Assembly (NCBI RefSeq): GCF_003544815.1
Contig: NZ_CP032100.1
Location: 2,480,001-2,544,000 of the forward strand
Source: Arcobacter suis CECT 7833
GTDB lineage: Bacteria > Campylobacterota > Campylobacteria > Campylobacterales > Arcobacteraceae
Length of the DNA: 64,000 nucleotides
Direction: 5' to 3'
Part shown: positions 19,576-27,857 of the stretch, piece by piece
Numbering within the stretch: the first letter of the stretch is position 1
How the letters are laid out: each line of letters starts with the position of its first letter
Translations under genes and position numbers: made by a program
The notes under the pieces: generated by a model
Databases searched by the model: none
Seen by the model: only the letters and a program-made list of their open reading frames with translations
Told to the model about the DNA's origin: nothing

Positions 19576-20193
19576 ATGCTTAAGACAATTTCTTCTTCAT
19601 TTGCCTTAACAACTCTTTGCCTACTTGCATTAATTGGCTGTTCTAATCATAACGAATTTTTAAAAGCTTCATCAAATGAACTTGCAATTGCCGATGATTG
19701 TCGAAATACAAATAAACATTTAGAAATGGATTGTTATGATTTAATTTCTTATAAAAATTCTTTTGCACAACTAAGATTGGCTTTAAATGCTCAATTAAAG
19801 GGGAATTTTGAGGAAGCAATTCAAAGATTAAATGTTTCAAAACAAAAAGGTAATTTTTATGCAAATGCACCTTTATCTGATATTTATAGAAATGGATTTG
19901 GTGTTACAATTAACCATGACTTAGCTATTAAACTTTTAGAAGAAACAAAAGAAATTGATCCAATAGCTTCATACAAATTGTATTTTTATTACTTAGATAA
20001 AAATAAAATAGAAGATGCCTTTGAACTTCTAAATTATGCAGCAACAAATGATGTTAAAGCTGCACAATTAGAACTATCAAAACTATATTTAAATGGTGAA
20101 TTTATCGAAAGAGATACAGATAAATCAAGCTATTGGGCAGAACAATATCAAGATAAAACTGAAAGTTTTACAAATAAAATTTATGGACTATAA
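19576..20193 (+). CDS. Sel1/TPR-type lipoprotein, first of a tandem pair
   Basis: A 205-residue predicted lipoprotein. The signal peptide ends in LALIGC, with C22 as lipid anchor. The mature part consists of Sel1-like helical repeats: FAQLRLALNAQLKGNFEEAI, YANAPLSDIYRNGFGV, AQLELSKLYLNG. Two further cysteines (DDC... and MDCY, 10 residues between them) may form a disulfide. Its stop codon abuts the start of a clear paralogue. Such repeats bind proteins; a periplasmic scaffold role is inferred. Confidence 0.8.
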   Translation: MLKTISSSFALTTLCLLALIGCSNHNEFLKASSNELAIADDCRNTNKHLEMDCYDLISYKNSFAQLRLALNAQLKGNFEEAIQRLNVSKQKGNFYANAPLSDIYRNGFGVTINHDLAIKLLEETKEIDPIASYKLYFYYLDKNKIEDAFELLNYAATNDVKAAQLELSKLYLNGEFIERDTDKSSYWAEQYQDKTESFTNKIYGL

Positions 20194-20847
20194 ATGTTAA
20201 AAAAAATCGCTCTACCAATCTTATCAATCTTTTTATTTACAGCTTGTTCTTTGAAAATGCCAGAGTTTTCAATGCCATCATTTTTGTCATTTTCAGATGA
20301 TAAAGATGCTATTGCTTTAGAAAAAGCAAATGTTTGTCAAAAAATAGAAGAACAAGATAATAAACTATTTTGTTATAGAAAAATTCTAAATGAAAACTCT
20401 TATGCCCAACTTAGAATGGGAACATATAGTGTTGAAAAAAAAGATTATAAAAAAGCAGTTGAATATTTAAATCAATCAATTAATAATGAAAATGCCTATG
20501 CTAACTTAGCTTTAGCCTTTTTATATTATAAAGGAGATGGAGTTGAAAAAGATATAGATAAAGCTTTTAAACTTCTAAATGATTCAAGTGATGTTGACCC
20601 AAATGCTGCTTATCAATTATCAAGATTTTATTTACAAGGTATAAATACAAAAGTTGATGTGGATAAAGGAATAGATTTATTAGAATTTGCAGCTTCTAAA
20701 AACATGTTAACTGCTCAAAAAATGCTTGTTAATATATATAAAGATGGCTTATTTTCACAAGATAAAGATACTAAAAAAGTTAAATATTGGGAAGACATAA
20801 TCAAAAAAGATATAAAAGACACAAATTTTGAGATTTATAAACTCTAA
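20194..20847 (+). CDS. Sel1/TPR-type lipoprotein, second of a tandem pair
   Basis: A 217-residue predicted lipoprotein with lipobox FTAC. It is paralogous to the preceding gene: NSYAQLRMGTYS corresponds to NSFAQLRLALNA, DVDPNAAYQLSRFYL to EIDPIASYKLYFYYL, and both end in IY-L. The cysteine pair is also kept (NVC... and LFCY). Sel1 repeats are seen at AYANLALAFLYYKGDGVEKD and AQKMLVNIYKDG. It begins at the base after the upstream stop, so both are surely one operon. Confidence 0.8.
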   Translation: MLKKIALPILSIFLFTACSLKMPEFSMPSFLSFSDDKDAIALEKANVCQKIEEQDNKLFCYRKILNENSYAQLRMGTYSVEKKDYKKAVEYLNQSINNENAYANLALAFLYYKGDGVEKDIDKAFKLLNDSSDVDPNAAYQLSRFYLQGINTKVDVDKGIDLLEFAASKNMLTAQKMLVNIYKDGLFSQDKDTKKVKYWEDIIKKDIKDTNFEIYKL

Positions 20848-20893
20848 AGTATAAGCATAATTACTTTTTTTCTAGATAATAAAATAAACTCTT

Positions 20894-20922
20894 AGAGGAA
20901 ATCTAAAATGAGAAAAAAATGA
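20894..20922 (+). promoter_or_regulatory. Strong ribosome binding site and 4-codon leader before sulP
   Basis: AGAGGA at 20894-20899 is spaced for the ATG at 20908, not for the sulP ATG at 20919. From 20908 the frame reads ATG-AGA-AAA-AAA-TGA, and its stop overlaps the sulP start (ATGA at 20919-20922). The run of seven A at 20913-20919 lies inside the leader; eight A would fuse the leader in frame with sulP. Confidence 0.6.
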
Positions 20923-22550
20923 AAAACAATATTTTATCTGGTTTAACAGTTGGAATAATAGCTCTTCCATTATCTATGGCATTAGCAATTGCTACAGGAG
21001 TTCCTCCTCAACTTGGGCTTTATACAGCTATTATTGCAGGAACATTTGCCGCTATTTTTGGAAGTAGTAAAGTAAATATTTCAGGTCCAACGGCTGCTTT
21101 TATAGTTATTCTTATTCCTATTGTTCATGAATTTGGAGTTTCTGGATTACTTATTTGTGGTTTATTATCTGGTTTTATTTTGGTAATTGCTGGATTTTTA
21201 AAATTGGGAACTTTAATAGAAATAGTTCCATATCCTGTAACTGTTGGATTTACTTCAGGAATTGCCGTTGTAATTGCCACTTATCAAATCAAAGATTTTT
21301 TTGGATTAACCATTGAAAATTTTGAAGGTCACTACTTAGATAAAATATTTCTAATTTTTAATAGTTTTCATACTTTCAGACCAGCGGAATTAGCAGTTGG
21401 AGTTGTAACTTTATTTATTCTTATTTTTTGGCAAAAAACAAAAAGCAAAATTCCATCAGCACTTATTGCTCTTGGATTTGTAACAGTTGTTGTTTATATT
21501 GCAAATATCTATTTCCCCCAACTAAATATTTCAACAATATATTCAACCTTTGATTATAAAATTGGAAACTTAGAAGGACAAGGAATTCCCCCTATTCCTT
21601 TACAATTTGAATTACCTTGGAGTTATTTAAATATTGACCAAATAAATTTAGCTTTATTTTATAAACTTCTTCCACATAGTATTGCAATAGCAATTTTAGG
21701 AGCTTTAGAGTCACTTTTATGTGCTGTCATTGCAGATGGAATGACAGGAGGGAAAACCGATCCAAATAAAGAATTAATTGGACAAGGAATTACAAATATT
21801 ATAGTTCCATTTTTTGGAGGAATTCCTGCAACTGCTGCAATCGCTCGAACAGTAGTAAATATAAAATCAGGTGCAACTTCAAAAATATCTTCGATTATTC
21901 ATTCTTTATTTATTTTAGTTTCAATTTCATTTTTAGCAACTTATTTATCATTTTTACCAATGGCATCATTATCAGCACTTTTATTAATGGTTGCTTGGAA
22001 TATGTCTGAAATTAAACATTTTATTAATATCGTAAAAGTAGCCCCAGGAAATGATATTTTAGTTCTTTTAACCTGTTTTATTTTAACTGTTTTAATAGAT
22101 ATGCAAGTGGCTGTTGCTATTGGAATGGGACTTGCGTCAATTTTATTTATCAAAAAAACTATAGATTTAAATTCTATTGAATTATTAAACAATAAAAATA
22201 ATACTGTTCATCCAGATATTCCAGATAATATTTCTATTTACGATATCAACGGTCCTATGTTTTTTGGAGCTGCACAAAGTGCACTAAAAACTCTTTTAAA
22301 TGTAAACGAAAATACAAATATTGTAATTTTAAATATGAAAAATGTTCCAATGATTGATATGACAGGAATAATAACCCTTGAATCTATTGTTGAGAATTTT
22401 GAAAGTAAAAATAAAAAATTGGTTTTTTGTGGATTAAGTGAAAGAATTCTAAAAAAATTAGAAAAAGCACACTTTCATTTTGATGGTATGACTTTAAAAA
22501 CTTTTGATAATTTACACGATTCTATAAATTATTCAAAATCTATAATATAA
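20919..22550 (+). CDS. SulP family anion permease with STAS domain
   Basis: A 543-residue inner-membrane transporter of the SulP/SLC26 family (sulfate, bicarbonate or other anions by proton or sodium coupling). The membrane domain spans about residues 1-410 and includes LPLSMALAIATGVPPQLGLYTAII, VNISGPTAAFIVIL and GGIPATAAIARTVVNIKSGA. A cytoplasmic STAS domain covers about 440-540 (IVILNMKNVPMIDMTGIITLESI). The substrate cannot be told from sequence. It is preceded by a 4-codon leader that holds the good ribosome binding site. Confidence 0.9.
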   Translation: MKNNILSGLTVGIIALPLSMALAIATGVPPQLGLYTAIIAGTFAAIFGSSKVNISGPTAAFIVILIPIVHEFGVSGLLICGLLSGFILVIAGFLKLGTLIEIVPYPVTVGFTSGIAVVIATYQIKDFFGLTIENFEGHYLDKIFLIFNSFHTFRPAELAVGVVTLFILIFWQKTKSKIPSALIALGFVTVVVYIANIYFPQLNISTIYSTFDYKIGNLEGQGIPPIPLQFELPWSYLNIDQINLALFYKLLPHSIAIAILGALESLLCAVIADGMTGGKTDPNKELIGQGITNIIVPFFGGIPATAAIARTVVNIKSGATSKISSIIHSLFILVSISFLATYLSFLPMASLSALLLMVAWNMSEIKHFINIVKVAPGNDILVLLTCFILTVLIDMQVAVAIGMGLASILFIKKTIDLNSIELLNNKNNTVHPDIPDNISIYDINGPMFFGAAQSALKTLLNVNENTNIVILNMKNVPMIDMTGIITLESIVENFESKNKKLVFCGLSERILKKLEKAHFHFDGMTLKTFDNLHDSINYSKSII

Positions 22551-22892: not shown

Positions 22893-23432
22893 CTATAATA
22901 AAAAAGTTTTTAAATCCTCAAAAACCTCTTTTTGTTCTTTATCAGATAAGTTTATATATTTTAAAGTCATTAAAGTGAACATTGCTTCTGAAAATAAAAA
23001 AGCTAATCTTAATTTTTTACCTTCTTCCGTATTTGTATCAATAGATTTTAAAGAGCTACAGTACCAATCTTGTAAATTTTCTAAAACAAACTTTTCTTGT
23101 AAAAGAGTAGTAATTACTTTAGATATTTTATCAAATTCTTCAGTATTATTGTAATTTGATATATACTCAATATGTGCTTTTAACTGAGAATATTTTGAAC
23201 TATCATCTTTTGATAAAATTTTTATTTGCTTATTATAATCTTCTTCATTCTTTTCTAAAACAGCCTTTATCATATCTTCTTTATTCCCAAAAATATACTG
23301 AACCCCACCTATTGAAATATTTGCTTTTGCGGCAACTTTTCTAATACTTAAACCAGAAAGTCCATCACTCAAAAGAATATCTTCAATAATGTTTATCAAA
23401 TGATTTTTATCTATTTTATTTTTTGTATTCAA
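22893..23432 (-). CDS. TetR family transcriptional regulator of the RND pump
   Basis: A 179-residue TetR-type repressor. The N-terminal helix-turn-helix is GLSIRKVAAKANISIGGVQYIFGNKEDMIKAVL, with the usual tyrosine and phenylalanine of the recognition helix; the rest is a variable ligand-binding helical domain. The start is TTG at 23430-23432, with AGGAG seven bases upstream; no ATG fits. It is divergent from an RND efflux operon, the arrangement of CmeR and AcrR, so it probably represses that operon and perhaps itself. Confidence 0.9.
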   Translation of the reverse strand: MNTKNKIDKNHLINIIEDILLSDGLSGLSIRKVAAKANISIGGVQYIFGNKEDMIKAVLEKNEEDYNKQIKILSKDDSSKYSQLKAHIEYISNYNNTEEFDKISKVITTLLQEKFVLENLQDWYCSSLKSIDTNTEEGKKLRLAFLFSEAMFTLMTLKYINLSDKEQKEVFEDLKTFLL

Positions 23433-23506
23433 TTTATAACTCCTATGTAATTTGCATAATATTTAATTAAAATTTAATATTACTTTAAATACTATTCTAG
23501 ACATTC

Positions 23507-23524
23507 AATACATACGTATGTATT
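23507..23524. promoter_or_regulatory. 18-bp perfect palindrome, likely TetR operator
   Basis: AATACATACGTATGTATT is a perfect palindrome in the 106-base divergent interval. It ends 14 bases before the efflux operon start, directly ahead of its AAAGG ribosome binding site. Bound there, a TetR dimer would block transcription of the operon. The tetR start lies 75 bases away on the other side. Confidence 0.7.
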
Positions 23525-23538
23525 ATAAAGGTTAAATA

Positions 23539-24693
23539 ATGTATTTTTACTTAAAAAAGATATTTTTATTGTTATTTACTATTTTATTGCTTGGATGCAA
23601 TGATGAAGGAAATAGTAATTTATTGATTGAAACACAAGAAATTGAAGTTGGATATATAACACTAAAAAAAGAAGAAGTTCCATTGCAACAAGAGTTATCA
23701 GGAAGGATAAAAGCTATTTATAAATCAGAGGTTAGACCTCAAATTGATGGAATCATAAAAGAACAACTTTTCAAAGAGGGAAGTTTTGTAAGAAAAAGTG
23801 ATATTTTATATGTAATTGATTCAGATTCATATCAAGCTATTTATGAAGAAGCTTTAGCAACATTAAAAAGTTCAGAAGCAAACTTAATTACACTAAAACT
23901 AAAAAATGAAAGATATGAAGAATCTGTAAAGTTTGATGTCATATCAAAACAAGATGCTGATGATGCCAAAGCTGCTTATTTACAAGCAATTGCTTTAGTT
24001 GAACAAAATAAAGCTCTAGTAAAAAGTGCTAAAATCAATTTAGATAGAACAAAAATAAAAGCACAAGTTCCGGGATTCATTGGAATATCAAATTATACTG
24101 TTGGAGCATTAGTCTCTCAAAATCAAACAAATGCATTAACTACAATAAGAGATACAACTAAAGTTTATGTAGATTTAAGTCAGTCTAATAATCAATTATT
24201 TAAATTAAAAAAATTAAATAAAGATAGTATGAAAGAAAATGATATAGATGTAAATATTATTTTACCTGATGATACTGTATATAAACATACTGGAAAACTT
24301 AAACTTCAAGAAATATCAGTTGATGAAGATACTGGATATGTAACTTTAAGAGCAGAATTTCCAAATCCAGATGGAGAATTATTAGATAATATGTTCGTAA
24401 ATACGATAATTGAAAGTGGTAATTCTAATGCTTTTTTAGTTCCTCAACAAGCGGTTACTTTAGATGCAAAATCAAATTATATTGTTACAACTATTCAAAA
24501 AGACAATACCATTCAAACAAAAATAATAACAGTAATAAGAGCAATAGACAATAATTGGCTGGTAACAGACGGGATTTTAGAAACAGATAAAATTATAATT
24601 GAAGGTTTAAGTAAAATCAATGAAAAAAGTATTGTTATTCCAAAAGATGTTAACAATTTATATGAAAACAACTTAAAAGAAGAAATGAAATGA
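23539..24693 (+). CDS. RND efflux periplasmic adaptor (membrane fusion protein)
   Basis: A 384-residue lipoprotein adaptor of the AcrA/MexA/CmeA type. The lipobox is LLLGC with C20 as anchor. Next come the barrel-sandwich half (EVRPQIDGIIKEQLFKEGSF), a coiled-coil hairpin at about 100-170 (ALATLKSSEANLITLKLKNERY), the second lipoyl half (AQVPGFIGISNYTVGALVSQ) and the beta-barrel part. It links the inner-membrane pump to the outer-membrane channel. It overlaps the pump gene by 4 bases (ATGA). Confidence 0.93.
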   Translation: MYFYLKKIFLLLFTILLLGCNDEGNSNLLIETQEIEVGYITLKKEEVPLQQELSGRIKAIYKSEVRPQIDGIIKEQLFKEGSFVRKSDILYVIDSDSYQAIYEEALATLKSSEANLITLKLKNERYEESVKFDVISKQDADDAKAAYLQAIALVEQNKALVKSAKINLDRTKIKAQVPGFIGISNYTVGALVSQNQTNALTTIRDTTKVYVDLSQSNNQLFKLKKLNKDSMKENDIDVNIILPDDTVYKHTGKLKLQEISVDEDTGYVTLRAEFPNPDGELLDNMFVNTIIESGNSNAFLVPQQAVTLDAKSNYIVTTIQKDNTIQTKIITVIRAIDNNWLVTDGILETDKIIIEGLSKINEKSIVIPKDVNNLYENNLKEEMK

Positions 24694-27600
24694 TAGCTCG
24701 TTTTTTTATTAATCACCCTATTTTTGCTTGGGTTATATCATTGATTATAATGCTATTAGGAATACTTTCTATAAAAAATTTAGCAGTAGAACAATATCCT
24801 GATATTGCTCCTCCAACTATTGAAATAAGAGCTACTTACTCAGGAGCAACAGCTAAGGCTATTGAAAATAGTATTACTCAAATTATAGAACAAGAGTTAA
24901 GAGGATTAGATGGTTTATTATATTTTTCTTCAACAAGTGGTTCAAGTACTTCAACTATAAATGTTGTATTTGAAAAAGGCATTGATCCTGATATTGCTCA
25001 AGTTCAAGTAAATAATAAAGTACAACAAATTTTACCAAGGCTTCCAGAAGATGTTAGAAAAGAGGGAGTTAGTGTTGTAAAAGCTCAAACTGATTATCTA
25101 ATGATACTTTCTATTCATGATGAACTAGGAAAATCTAGCGAAAATGATATTTCAGATTACATGATTAGTAATTTAAAAGATGGACTTGCAAGAGTAGATG
25201 GTGTTGGAGGAGTTGAACTTTTTGGTGCAGAATATGCGATGAGAATTTGGCTAGATCCTAAAAAATTAAAATCATATAATTTAATGCCATCTGATATAAA
25301 TAAAGAAGTTACAATACAAAACACCCAAGCATCTGGAGGAAGTATTGGAGCAAGACCATACTTAAATAATCAAGAGTTAAATGCAGATGTTGTATCAAGA
25401 ACAAAATTAGAAAATGTAAGAGAGTTCGAAAATATTGTTATAAAAAGTAATAATGCTGGATCTAATGTATTTTTATCTGATGTTGCAAAGGTAGAGATTG
25501 GAAGTCAAGATTATTCATTTATATCAAAAGTAAATGGCTATCAAGCAAGTGGTATAGGTATAAAGTTATCAGCGGGTACAAATGCTATACAAACAGCTAA
25601 AAAAGTCAAAGAGTACATATCTACATTTGAAAATTCTTTACCAAGTGGCTACAAAATTTCATACCCGTATGATACAACTGTTTTTATTGAAGAATCTATA
25701 AAAGAAGTAGTAAAAACACTTTTTGAGGCAATATTTTTAGTAGTTATTGTAATGTTTGTTTTTTTAAATAGTTGGAGAGCAACTATAATTCCTGCTATTG
25801 CTGTGCCTGTTGTATTGCTTGGAACATTTGCTATTTTAAACTTTTTAGGATTTTCTATAAACTCTTTGACAATGTTTGCTATGGTATTATCCATTGGTTT
25901 ATTAGTTGATGATGCTATTGTTGTTGTCGAAAATGTTGAAAGAACTATGAAAGAAAAGAATCTTTGTGCAAAAGAAGCAACTATTGTCGCTATGAGTGAA
26001 ATAACAAGTGCTTTAATTGGTATTGCTACTGTTCTTTCTGTTGTATTTTTGCCAATGATATTTTTTAGTGGTTCAACTGGAATTATATATAAACAATTCG
26101 CTGTTACAATTATATCTTCAATGTTATTATCAGTTATCGTAGCAATCACTTTATCTCCTGCAATTTGTGCAACATTTTTAAAACCTCACAATTCTAGTCA
26201 AAAACAAAGTGGTCCTATTGTATGGTTCAATAATAAGTTTGATAGTTTGACAAGAAAATATAAAATGAGTATTTTTAATTTTATAAATAAACCTCTAAAA
26301 TGGATAACTGCCTATGTTGTAATAATAGCTGTAACAATTTTATTTTTTCTAAAGTTACCAACAGGATTTGTACCATCAGAAGATCAAGGTAATTTGATGA
26401 TTCAATTTACTCTTCCAGTTGGAGCTAGTACAACTCGTTCTGAAAATGTTGAAAAAATAATAAGAGATTATTTTTTAAAAGAAGAGAAAAATAATGTTAA
26501 TTCTATTTTTACTATTGTTGGATTTACATTCACTGGAAATGGACAAAATGGTGGTTTAGGTTTCATTGAGTTAAAAAATTGGGAAGAAAGAGCTGGCAAA
26601 GAAAACAAAGCAGATGAAATCGCCCAAAGAGCAATGATAGTTTTTTCTGATAGCAGTTCAAAATATTTTATCAGGGATGCTGAAGTTTATGTGATGAATC
26701 CGTCTTCTATTCCAGGTCTTGGAAATTCAGATGGTTTTGAGTTTCAATTACAAGCTGGGGCAAAAATGTCAAGAGAAGAACTGCTTAAAGCAAAAGATTC
26801 TTTGTTAGAAACATTAAACTCAAATGAAATAATAGTTGGAGCTAGAGTAGAAGGAACAGAAGAAACACCTCAAATAAAACTTAATTATGATAAAAAGAAG
26901 ATATATTCCTTAGGTTTATCTTATGAAGATATTGATAATACATTAAGTTCTGCTTGGGCAGGAACTTACGTAAATGATTTTATTGATAGATCAAGAGTAA
27001 AAAGAGTTTATATCCAAGCTGATGCACAATATAGAGCAAAACCAGAAGATTTGTATTTATGGAATGTTAGAAATAAAGAAAATAAAATGGTCTCTTTTGA
27101 GGAGTTTACTAAGATATCTTGGGAACCAGCTGAAAAATCACTGACAAGATACAATGGGTTAGCTTCATATTTATTTCAAGGGCAAGCGGGTTATGGGATA
27201 AGTTCTGGAACTGCAATGGAAGAAATGGAAAAATTAGCTAAAACTAACAATCAAGATACTAATTACTCTTGGAGTGGATTATCTTATCAAGAAAAATTAT
27301 CAGGAGGACAAGCAATTTATTTATATAGCTTATCTTTGATAGTGATATTTTTGTGTTTAGCCGCGTTATATGAAAGTTGGACTATTCCAATATCTGTACT
27401 ATTAGCTGTTCCATTAGGAATTATTGGTGCAGTTTTATCTGTTTATTTTAGGGAATTAAACAATGATGTATATTTTCAAGTCGCACTTTTAACCACAGTT
27501 GGTCTTGTATCTAAAAATGCAATTTTAATTGTAGAATTTATTGAAAATGCTCATAAAAATGGAAAGCCATTAGTTAAATCAGCAATCCAAGGAGCAAGTT

Positions 27601-27857
27601 TAAGATTTAGACCAATAATTATGACTTCATTGGCTTTTATTGCTGGAGTTATTCCTTTAGCAATTTCAACGGGAGCTGGAGCAAATAGTAGAATTTCAAT
27701 AGGTACTGGAATTATTGGAGGAACTTTAACAGCAACTGTTTTAGCAATATTTTATGTGCCACTTTTATTTATTTTGATTAAAAAAATATTTACACCCCAA
27801 AGCGAACAAGCGAAGCTTGTAAGAGAAAAAGAGCAAAAAGGTATAAAAAATGTTTAA
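24690..27857 (+). CDS. RND multidrug efflux transporter (HAE1 family)
   Basis: A 1055-residue proton-driven pump of the AcrB/CmeB type. The start MIARFFINHPIFAWVISLIIMLLG is the first membrane helix. The proton-relay aspartates lie in VLSIGLLVDDAIVVVENVERTM, and the partner lysine region is GLVSKNAILIVEFIENA. The periplasmic porter and docking domains occupy the two large loops (FVPSEDQGNLMIQFTLP opens the second). Motifs and length are of the hydrophobe/amphiphile exporter branch, not the metal branch. The substrate range cannot be predicted. Confidence 0.95.
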   Translation: MIARFFINHPIFAWVISLIIMLLGILSIKNLAVEQYPDIAPPTIEIRATYSGATAKAIENSITQIIEQELRGLDGLLYFSSTSGSSTSTINVVFEKGIDPDIAQVQVNNKVQQILPRLPEDVRKEGVSVVKAQTDYLMILSIHDELGKSSENDISDYMISNLKDGLARVDGVGGVELFGAEYAMRIWLDPKKLKSYNLMPSDINKEVTIQNTQASGGSIGARPYLNNQELNADVVSRTKLENVREFENIVIKSNNAGSNVFLSDVAKVEIGSQDYSFISKVNGYQASGIGIKLSAGTNAIQTAKKVKEYISTFENSLPSGYKISYPYDTTVFIEESIKEVVKTLFEAIFLVVIVMFVFLNSWRATIIPAIAVPVVLLGTFAILNFLGFSINSLTMFAMVLSIGLLVDDAIVVVENVERTMKEKNLCAKEATIVAMSEITSALIGIATVLSVVFLPMIFFSGSTGIIYKQFAVTIISSMLLSVIVAITLSPAICATFLKPHNSSQKQSGPIVWFNNKFDSLTRKYKMSIFNFINKPLKWITAYVVIIAVTILFFLKLPTGFVPSEDQGNLMIQFTLPVGASTTRSENVEKIIRDYFLKEEKNNVNSIFTIVGFTFTGNGQNGGLGFIELKNWEERAGKENKADEIAQRAMIVFSDSSSKYFIRDAEVYVMNPSSIPGLGNSDGFEFQLQAGAKMSREELLKAKDSLLETLNSNEIIVGARVEGTEETPQIKLNYDKKKIYSLGLSYEDIDNTLSSAWAGTYVNDFIDRSRVKRVYIQADAQYRAKPEDLYLWNVRNKENKMVSFEEFTKISWEPAEKSLTRYNGLASYLFQGQAGYGISSGTAMEEMEKLAKTNNQDTNYSWSGLSYQEKLSGGQAIYLYSLSLIVIFLCLAALYESWTIPISVLLAVPLGIIGAVLSVYFRELNNDVYFQVALLTTVGLVSKNAILIVEFIENAHKNGKPLVKSAIQGASLRFRPIIMTSLAFIAGVIPLAISTGAGANSRISIGTGIIGGTLTATVLAIFYVPLLFILIKKIFTPQSEQAKLVREKEQKGIKNV

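Follow-up and report, generated by a model that had tools for sequence, protein, structure and literature searches.

A four-codon leader before sulP in Arcobacter suis as the remnant of a deleted upstream gene

The four-codon reading frame that precedes sulP in Arcobacter suis CECT 7833 is identified, by comparison with its relatives, as the end of a deleted gene, here termed P207, and the ATGA overlap through which it touches sulP was inherited from that gene. We consider it fairly probable that the surviving tail of P207 still serves as a minimal coupling element for sulP. The DNA analyzed here (the window) is a stretch of 64,000 nucleotides, covering positions 2,480,001–2,544,000 of a genome assembled as one contig of 2,639,269 bases. 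A first-pass annotation had described the anatomy of the sulP start, namely an AGAGGA motif, an ATG at 20908, the frame Met-Arg-Lys-Lys-stop, an overlap of its TGA with the sulP ATG and a run of seven A, and all of these elements were confirmed in the sequence. The TGA (20920–20922) overlaps the sulP ATG (20919–20921), giving a 4-nt overlap between co-directed ORFs, and one extra A in the tract would fuse the mini-ORF and sulP frames, as had been claimed for A8. The features of the region, in window coordinates, are as follows.

19576–20193, + strand: Sel1-repeat lipoprotein-like gene 1, 205 aa, upstream neighbour (ORF; Pfam Sel1)
20194–20847, + strand: Sel1-repeat lipoprotein-like gene 2, 217 aa, adjoining sulP upstream (ORF; Pfam Sel1)
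20861–20874, − strand: tetR remnant (final codons), left edge of the scar; TTACTTTTTTTCTA on the + strand
20875–20879, no strand: deletion junction, ~1.28 kb lost; 5 bases that fit neither edge (identity drops left of 20880)
20880–20922, + strand: P207 remnant (final 13 codons and TGA), right edge of the scar
20894–20899, + strand: Shine-Dalgarno-like AGAGGA serving the ATG at 20908 (duplex −5.8 kcal/mol)
20908–20922, + strand: mini-ORF Met-Arg-Lys-Lys-TGA, the terminal 15 nt of P207
20913–20919, + strand: A7, read as A_AAA_AAA in the frame of the mini-ORF (nine of 12 relatives keep this length)
20919–22550, + strand: sulP, intact gene for a SulP/DauA-like anion transporter of 543 aa that has a STAS domain (Pfam PF00916, PF01740)

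In the encoded SulP protein, the Sulfate_transp and STAS domains both score above their Pfam cut-offs. The NCBIfam DauA model NF008660 matches it with 653.5 bits (cut-off 614); the general sulP model TIGR00815 of the same collection scores it below that model's cut-off. A sulP gene was found in all 31 genomes of the genus, the window genome included, and its start is well placed, being aligned or one codon earlier in the 29 congeners read upstream. The dN/dS of sulP between the window genome and its three nearest relatives is 0.097–0.105, and among those relatives it is 0.106–0.114. By these codon comparisons, sulP is shown to be still under purifying selection in the window genome.

The origin of the leader can be derived from the DNA upstream of sulP in the relatives. 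This comparison covered 29 congeners and the window; the genome G018, in which a contig end cuts the sulP match, was excluded, and the distant loci L039–L057 and the paralogue L002 were excluded from further comparison. The named relatives among the congeners are Aliarcobacter, and the nearest are Aliarcobacter MAGs. In 12 of the 29, the reading frame closed by the sulP ATGA is a gene of 205–211 aa, P207, the C-terminal end of which reads, for example, SSMIKRLKNSKYKINSSRKSKMRKK, with the ATGA overlap onto sulP. Orthologues of P207, 73–100% identical, adjoin sulP in 12 of the 31 genomes. Three P207-bearing loci were inspected. In each, P207 is preceded by a divergent gene of the TetR family (Pfam TetR_N), and upstream of that come two Sel1-repeat genes, the same pair that precedes sulP in the window. 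An orthologue of this tetR (76–100% identical) is located beside sulP in 14 genomes, the 12 with P207 plus G002 and G006, and neither a tetR nor a P207 orthologue was found in the other 15 congeners read. In the window genome, the tetR of the relatives' sulP locus gives no match, and P207 has just two paralogues, 39–40% identical and located elsewhere.

In the window, 71 bases separate the Sel1 stop from sulP, and these align with both ends of the missing tetR–P207 DNA. At the left edge, the 14 bases at 20861–20874 are identical to the tetR 3' end in seven of the 12 P207-bearing relatives and have one mismatch in two further ones; in G001, G017 and G019 the 12-base seed is absent. At the right edge, 20880–20918 covers 39 positions of the terminal P207 codons; G024 and G023 agree with it at 36 of these and the other ten relatives at 27–35, and the next-best place for this 39-mer within the G024 locus reaches 25/39. 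Left of 20880, identity to P207 drops to 4–7 of 21 bases (6 of 21 in G024). A TAG at 20893–20895 breaks the P207 frame inside the surviving tail, and arithmetic on the G024 coordinates gives a deletion of about 1,285 bases. It is the persistence of both deletion edges, in tetR and in P207, that marks the leader as a gene-end scar.

In the displayed, midpoint-rooted tree, the window genome was grouped with G020, G023 and G024 with a support of 1.000 and with ten P207-bearing genomes with a support of 0.995; its order among G020, G023 and G024 had a support of 0.045. Given this placement of the window genome inside the P207-bearing group, the loss of tetR and P207 is the simplest history. The converse scenario, an ancestral tail with a later insertion of P207, was rejected, as none of the 17 P207-less congeners read carries the tail, and the nesting of the window genome counters it as well. 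Viral contigs gave no exact copy of the terminal 24 bases of the scar. A second, separate P207-less state is represented by G002 and G006 (loci L067 and L066), where both P207 and the tail are absent and sulP lies directly behind the tetR spacer with an AGGA of its own.

Neither Pfam nor NCBIfam yields a match above cut-off for the product of P207, and relatives of the P207 family are present in 52 of the 104 genomes of the taxonomic family. In the window genome, one paralogue (L087, G000:C1:1958604) is flanked on one side by a response-regulator/PAS/HD gene and on the other, with zero gap, by a CheA-like gene with a CheW domain; the second paralogue is at L088 (G000:C1:1498653). Each of the two CheA-like genes (L087:4599–5681 and L088:4612–5694) lies directly behind a P207 paralogue. 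Their first 110 residues, the part over which they were compared, are identical, and we regard the two as the outcome of a recent duplication or gene conversion. The context of the paralogues, with response-regulator/PAS/HD and CheA-like genes, suggests that P207 acts as a partner in signalling, possibly with SulP.

The spacer between tetR and P207 contains a palindrome, ACTTAAT-N5-ATTAAGT. Of the 14 genomes with tetR, 13 have it there in exact form (at L058:7319–7337, for example), and G011 deviates by one base. It also precedes sulP in G002 and G006. A single extra copy occurs in G010 and in G017, and the reversed control occurs 0–2 times per genome, so it is the location of the palindrome alone that is informative. 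From its place and symmetry, it is likely to be the TetR operator. No exact copy is present in the window genome, and the two matches in the window that allow two mismatches are at chance level. The deletion of ~1.28 kb took nearly all of tetR, this probable operator and P207 except for its last 13 codons. As repressor, probable operator and partner gene were lost together, the control of sulP has probably been rewired, and the Sel1 genes are now its immediate upstream neighbours. No terminator-like site was found between the Sel1 genes and sulP. A single weak promoter-like match is oriented towards sulP (+ strand, 20834–20861); on both strands together there are six such matches in 400 bases, where 2.9 are expected. 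An attenuator or another strong RNA structure was considered and rejected, since the region folds no more strongly than its shuffles (z −0.40) and terminator-like sites are absent. Elsewhere in the window, at 22893–27857, a TetR-type gene (22893–23432, minus strand, TetR_N just above cut-off) is divergent from two genes resembling an RND efflux adaptor and pump, as named by eye, which is an ordinary arrangement.

We infer the following course of sulP expression in the window genome. Transcription would read through from the Sel1 genes into sulP. Ribosomes would be loaded via AGAGGA and start at 20908, formerly an internal Met of P207, then read four codons, terminate at the TGA and start again on the sulP ATG (20919) that overlaps it. 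Judging from analogous gene pairs, coupling of sulP to P207 can be presumed in the relatives that carry both. Reinitiation at sulP had already been proposed by the first-pass annotation; it gains plausibility from the descent of the ATGA from a gene–gene overlap present in 12 of the 29 congeners, and it is this descent that the sequences establish, while the functional part of the proposal stays a plausible reading. Loading at 20908 with reinitiation at sulP is favoured by the retention of exactly 15 nt of P207, ATG through TGA, by a Shine-Dalgarno (SD) duplex that is stronger than in the relatives, and by the constraint still acting on sulP.

The SD duplex energies were calculated with assumed anti-SD letters. 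The leader SD reaches −5.8 kcal/mol. For comparison, the 5th percentile over 500 random sites is −4.71, the median for 48 mechanically called window ORFs with an ATG start and a length of 150 aa or more is −3.2, and the SD of sulP itself has −2.7. At the leader place in the 12 P207-bearing relatives, the values range from 0 to −4.2. There, the AGAGGA site corresponds to P207 codons TCN or ACN followed by AGA (11 of 12) or AGG (G010), and the leader ATG is an internal codon of P207 in seven of the 12; G010 has the AGG codon as in the window, yet lacks a start codon at the position of the leader ATG. The gain of SD strength is seen in one lineage, and this, like the AGG of G010, tells against reinitiation from the leader. 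It is possible, though less likely than not, that a coupled gene, orphaned by the deletion, was mended in place, with an internal Met turned into a start, an SD strengthened by substitution and a leader that became self-sufficient, while sulP escaped TetR.

Direct initiation at the sulP ATG (20919), within A-rich surroundings and with the mini-ORF as a functionless leftover, is a live rival to reinitiation, although we regard the leftover explanation as rather unlikely. Eight of the 48 window ORFs and several sulP orthologues have weak or no SD pairing, and the SD of sulP is just −1.0 in the P207-less G005, G008 and G026; with several relatives starting sulP from a weak SD, the gene may not need the leader. 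The weak SD of sulP in the window overlaps the leader, and in the minimum-energy fold (frequency 0.0185) the leader SD, for all its strength, is paired with an upstream T run left by tetR. The centroid structure leaves that SD unpaired. What argues against direct initiation is that the strongest SD sits at the spacing of the leader, 19 nt before the sulP ATG, and that ribosomes loaded at 20908 would be expected to cover the sulP start.

Termination–reinitiation at ATGA overlaps offers a precedent for reinitiation from the leader. Of 14 overlapping pairs tested in Haloferax volcanii and E. coli, 13 showed strict coupling (PMC6728339), and in two E. coli pairs the final 15 nt of the gene upstream were enough for coupling (PMC10666635). 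In the latter work, the 15-nt fusions followed a long reporter and were not themselves a 15-nt ORF, and for one 15-nt pair the stop-codon control was high too. The sulP leader shares with these systems (PMC6728339, PMC10666635) the 4-nt ATGA overlap and a length of 15 nt, which can suffice in E. coli reporters. Unlike such gene pairs, sulP has lost its upstream gene, and the remaining codons have their own start and SD. A short ORF that merely delivers ribosomes to a downstream gene is already described in a review (PMC12548453); the sulP leader resembles it in being minimal, with a −4 overlap and no evident function of its product, but was born by the deletion of a real gene, whereas the reviewed ORF arose by insertion of a mobile element (MIRU). 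Among the matches listed from the open-licence literature, nothing dealt with this case, either as a gene remnant acting as a reinitiation leader or as Arcobacter SulP with TetR.

The A7 tract had been taken in the first-pass annotation for a possible slippage-tuned or phase-variable switch, with a one-base assembly error as the simple alternative, and the relatives support neither. In nine of the 12 P207-bearing species the tract is A7 as well, encoding the Lys-Lys end of P207 and extending into the overlap. The other three, G001, G010 and G017, read AAATAA, AAACAA or ATGAA before ATGA, which are substitutions that keep the length. In the window, with 28.4% G+C, there are 110 A/T runs of at least 7, of which 91 have length 7 and 19 have length 8, and an A7 by itself is nothing unusual here. 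The constant length, with differences by substitution, argues against both phase variation and assembly error; there is no sign that the tract is hypermutable, and A7 needs no assembly error to explain it.

Slippage at A7, by −1 frameshifting or by RNA polymerase, could give some Met-Arg-Lys-Lys-SulP fusion, and some P207–SulP fusion in the P207-bearing relatives. The heptamer A_AAA_AAA stands just before the stop and is present in nine of the 12 relatives, a −1 shift leads into the sulP frame, and folding predicts a weak A+U-rich hairpin at around 20930–20957, 10 nt beyond the tract. We nevertheless find this improbable, as the X_XXY_YYZ pattern is not conserved (the heptamer is broken by substitution in the three relatives named above), Arg-Lys-Lys in an A-rich genome yields the same letters, the fold is like that of shuffles, and SulP can be made without a fusion. 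Homopolymers are generally error-prone, so that the true tract might be A8; this seems scarcely credible when nine of 12 other assemblies have A7, the length that yields both the ATGA overlap and the conserved end of P207. A phase-variable switch, in which changes between A7 and A8 would raise or lower sulP, could draw on a homopolymer at the start and on the fusion of frames by A8. It is nonetheless very improbable: nine of 12 relatives have A7 and the other three no indel (with one genome per species), 110 comparable runs occur in 64 kb, and by its anatomy SulP is readable with A7 and A8 alike. A further point against such a switch is that A. butzleri RM4018 was reported (PMC2147049) to have neither variable poly-G:C tracts nor contingency genes, which concerns G:C and not A tracts. 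Helicobacter-type homopolymer phase variation (PMC2823697) shares with sulP a homopolymer near the start codon, but the A7 here is constant in length across species and was inherited from coding sequence.

Short leader ORFs and start–stop overlaps can thus arise as scars of gene loss and not as designed switches, and A-tract mini-ORFs in A+T-rich genomes should not be taken for phase switches without comparison to relatives. The sulP locus of the window genome may also be viewed as a natural experiment on the minimal sequence that keeps a coupled gene translated once its partner is lost. If the leader was indeed mended in place, it would represent the natural birth of an upstream mini-ORF through gene loss.
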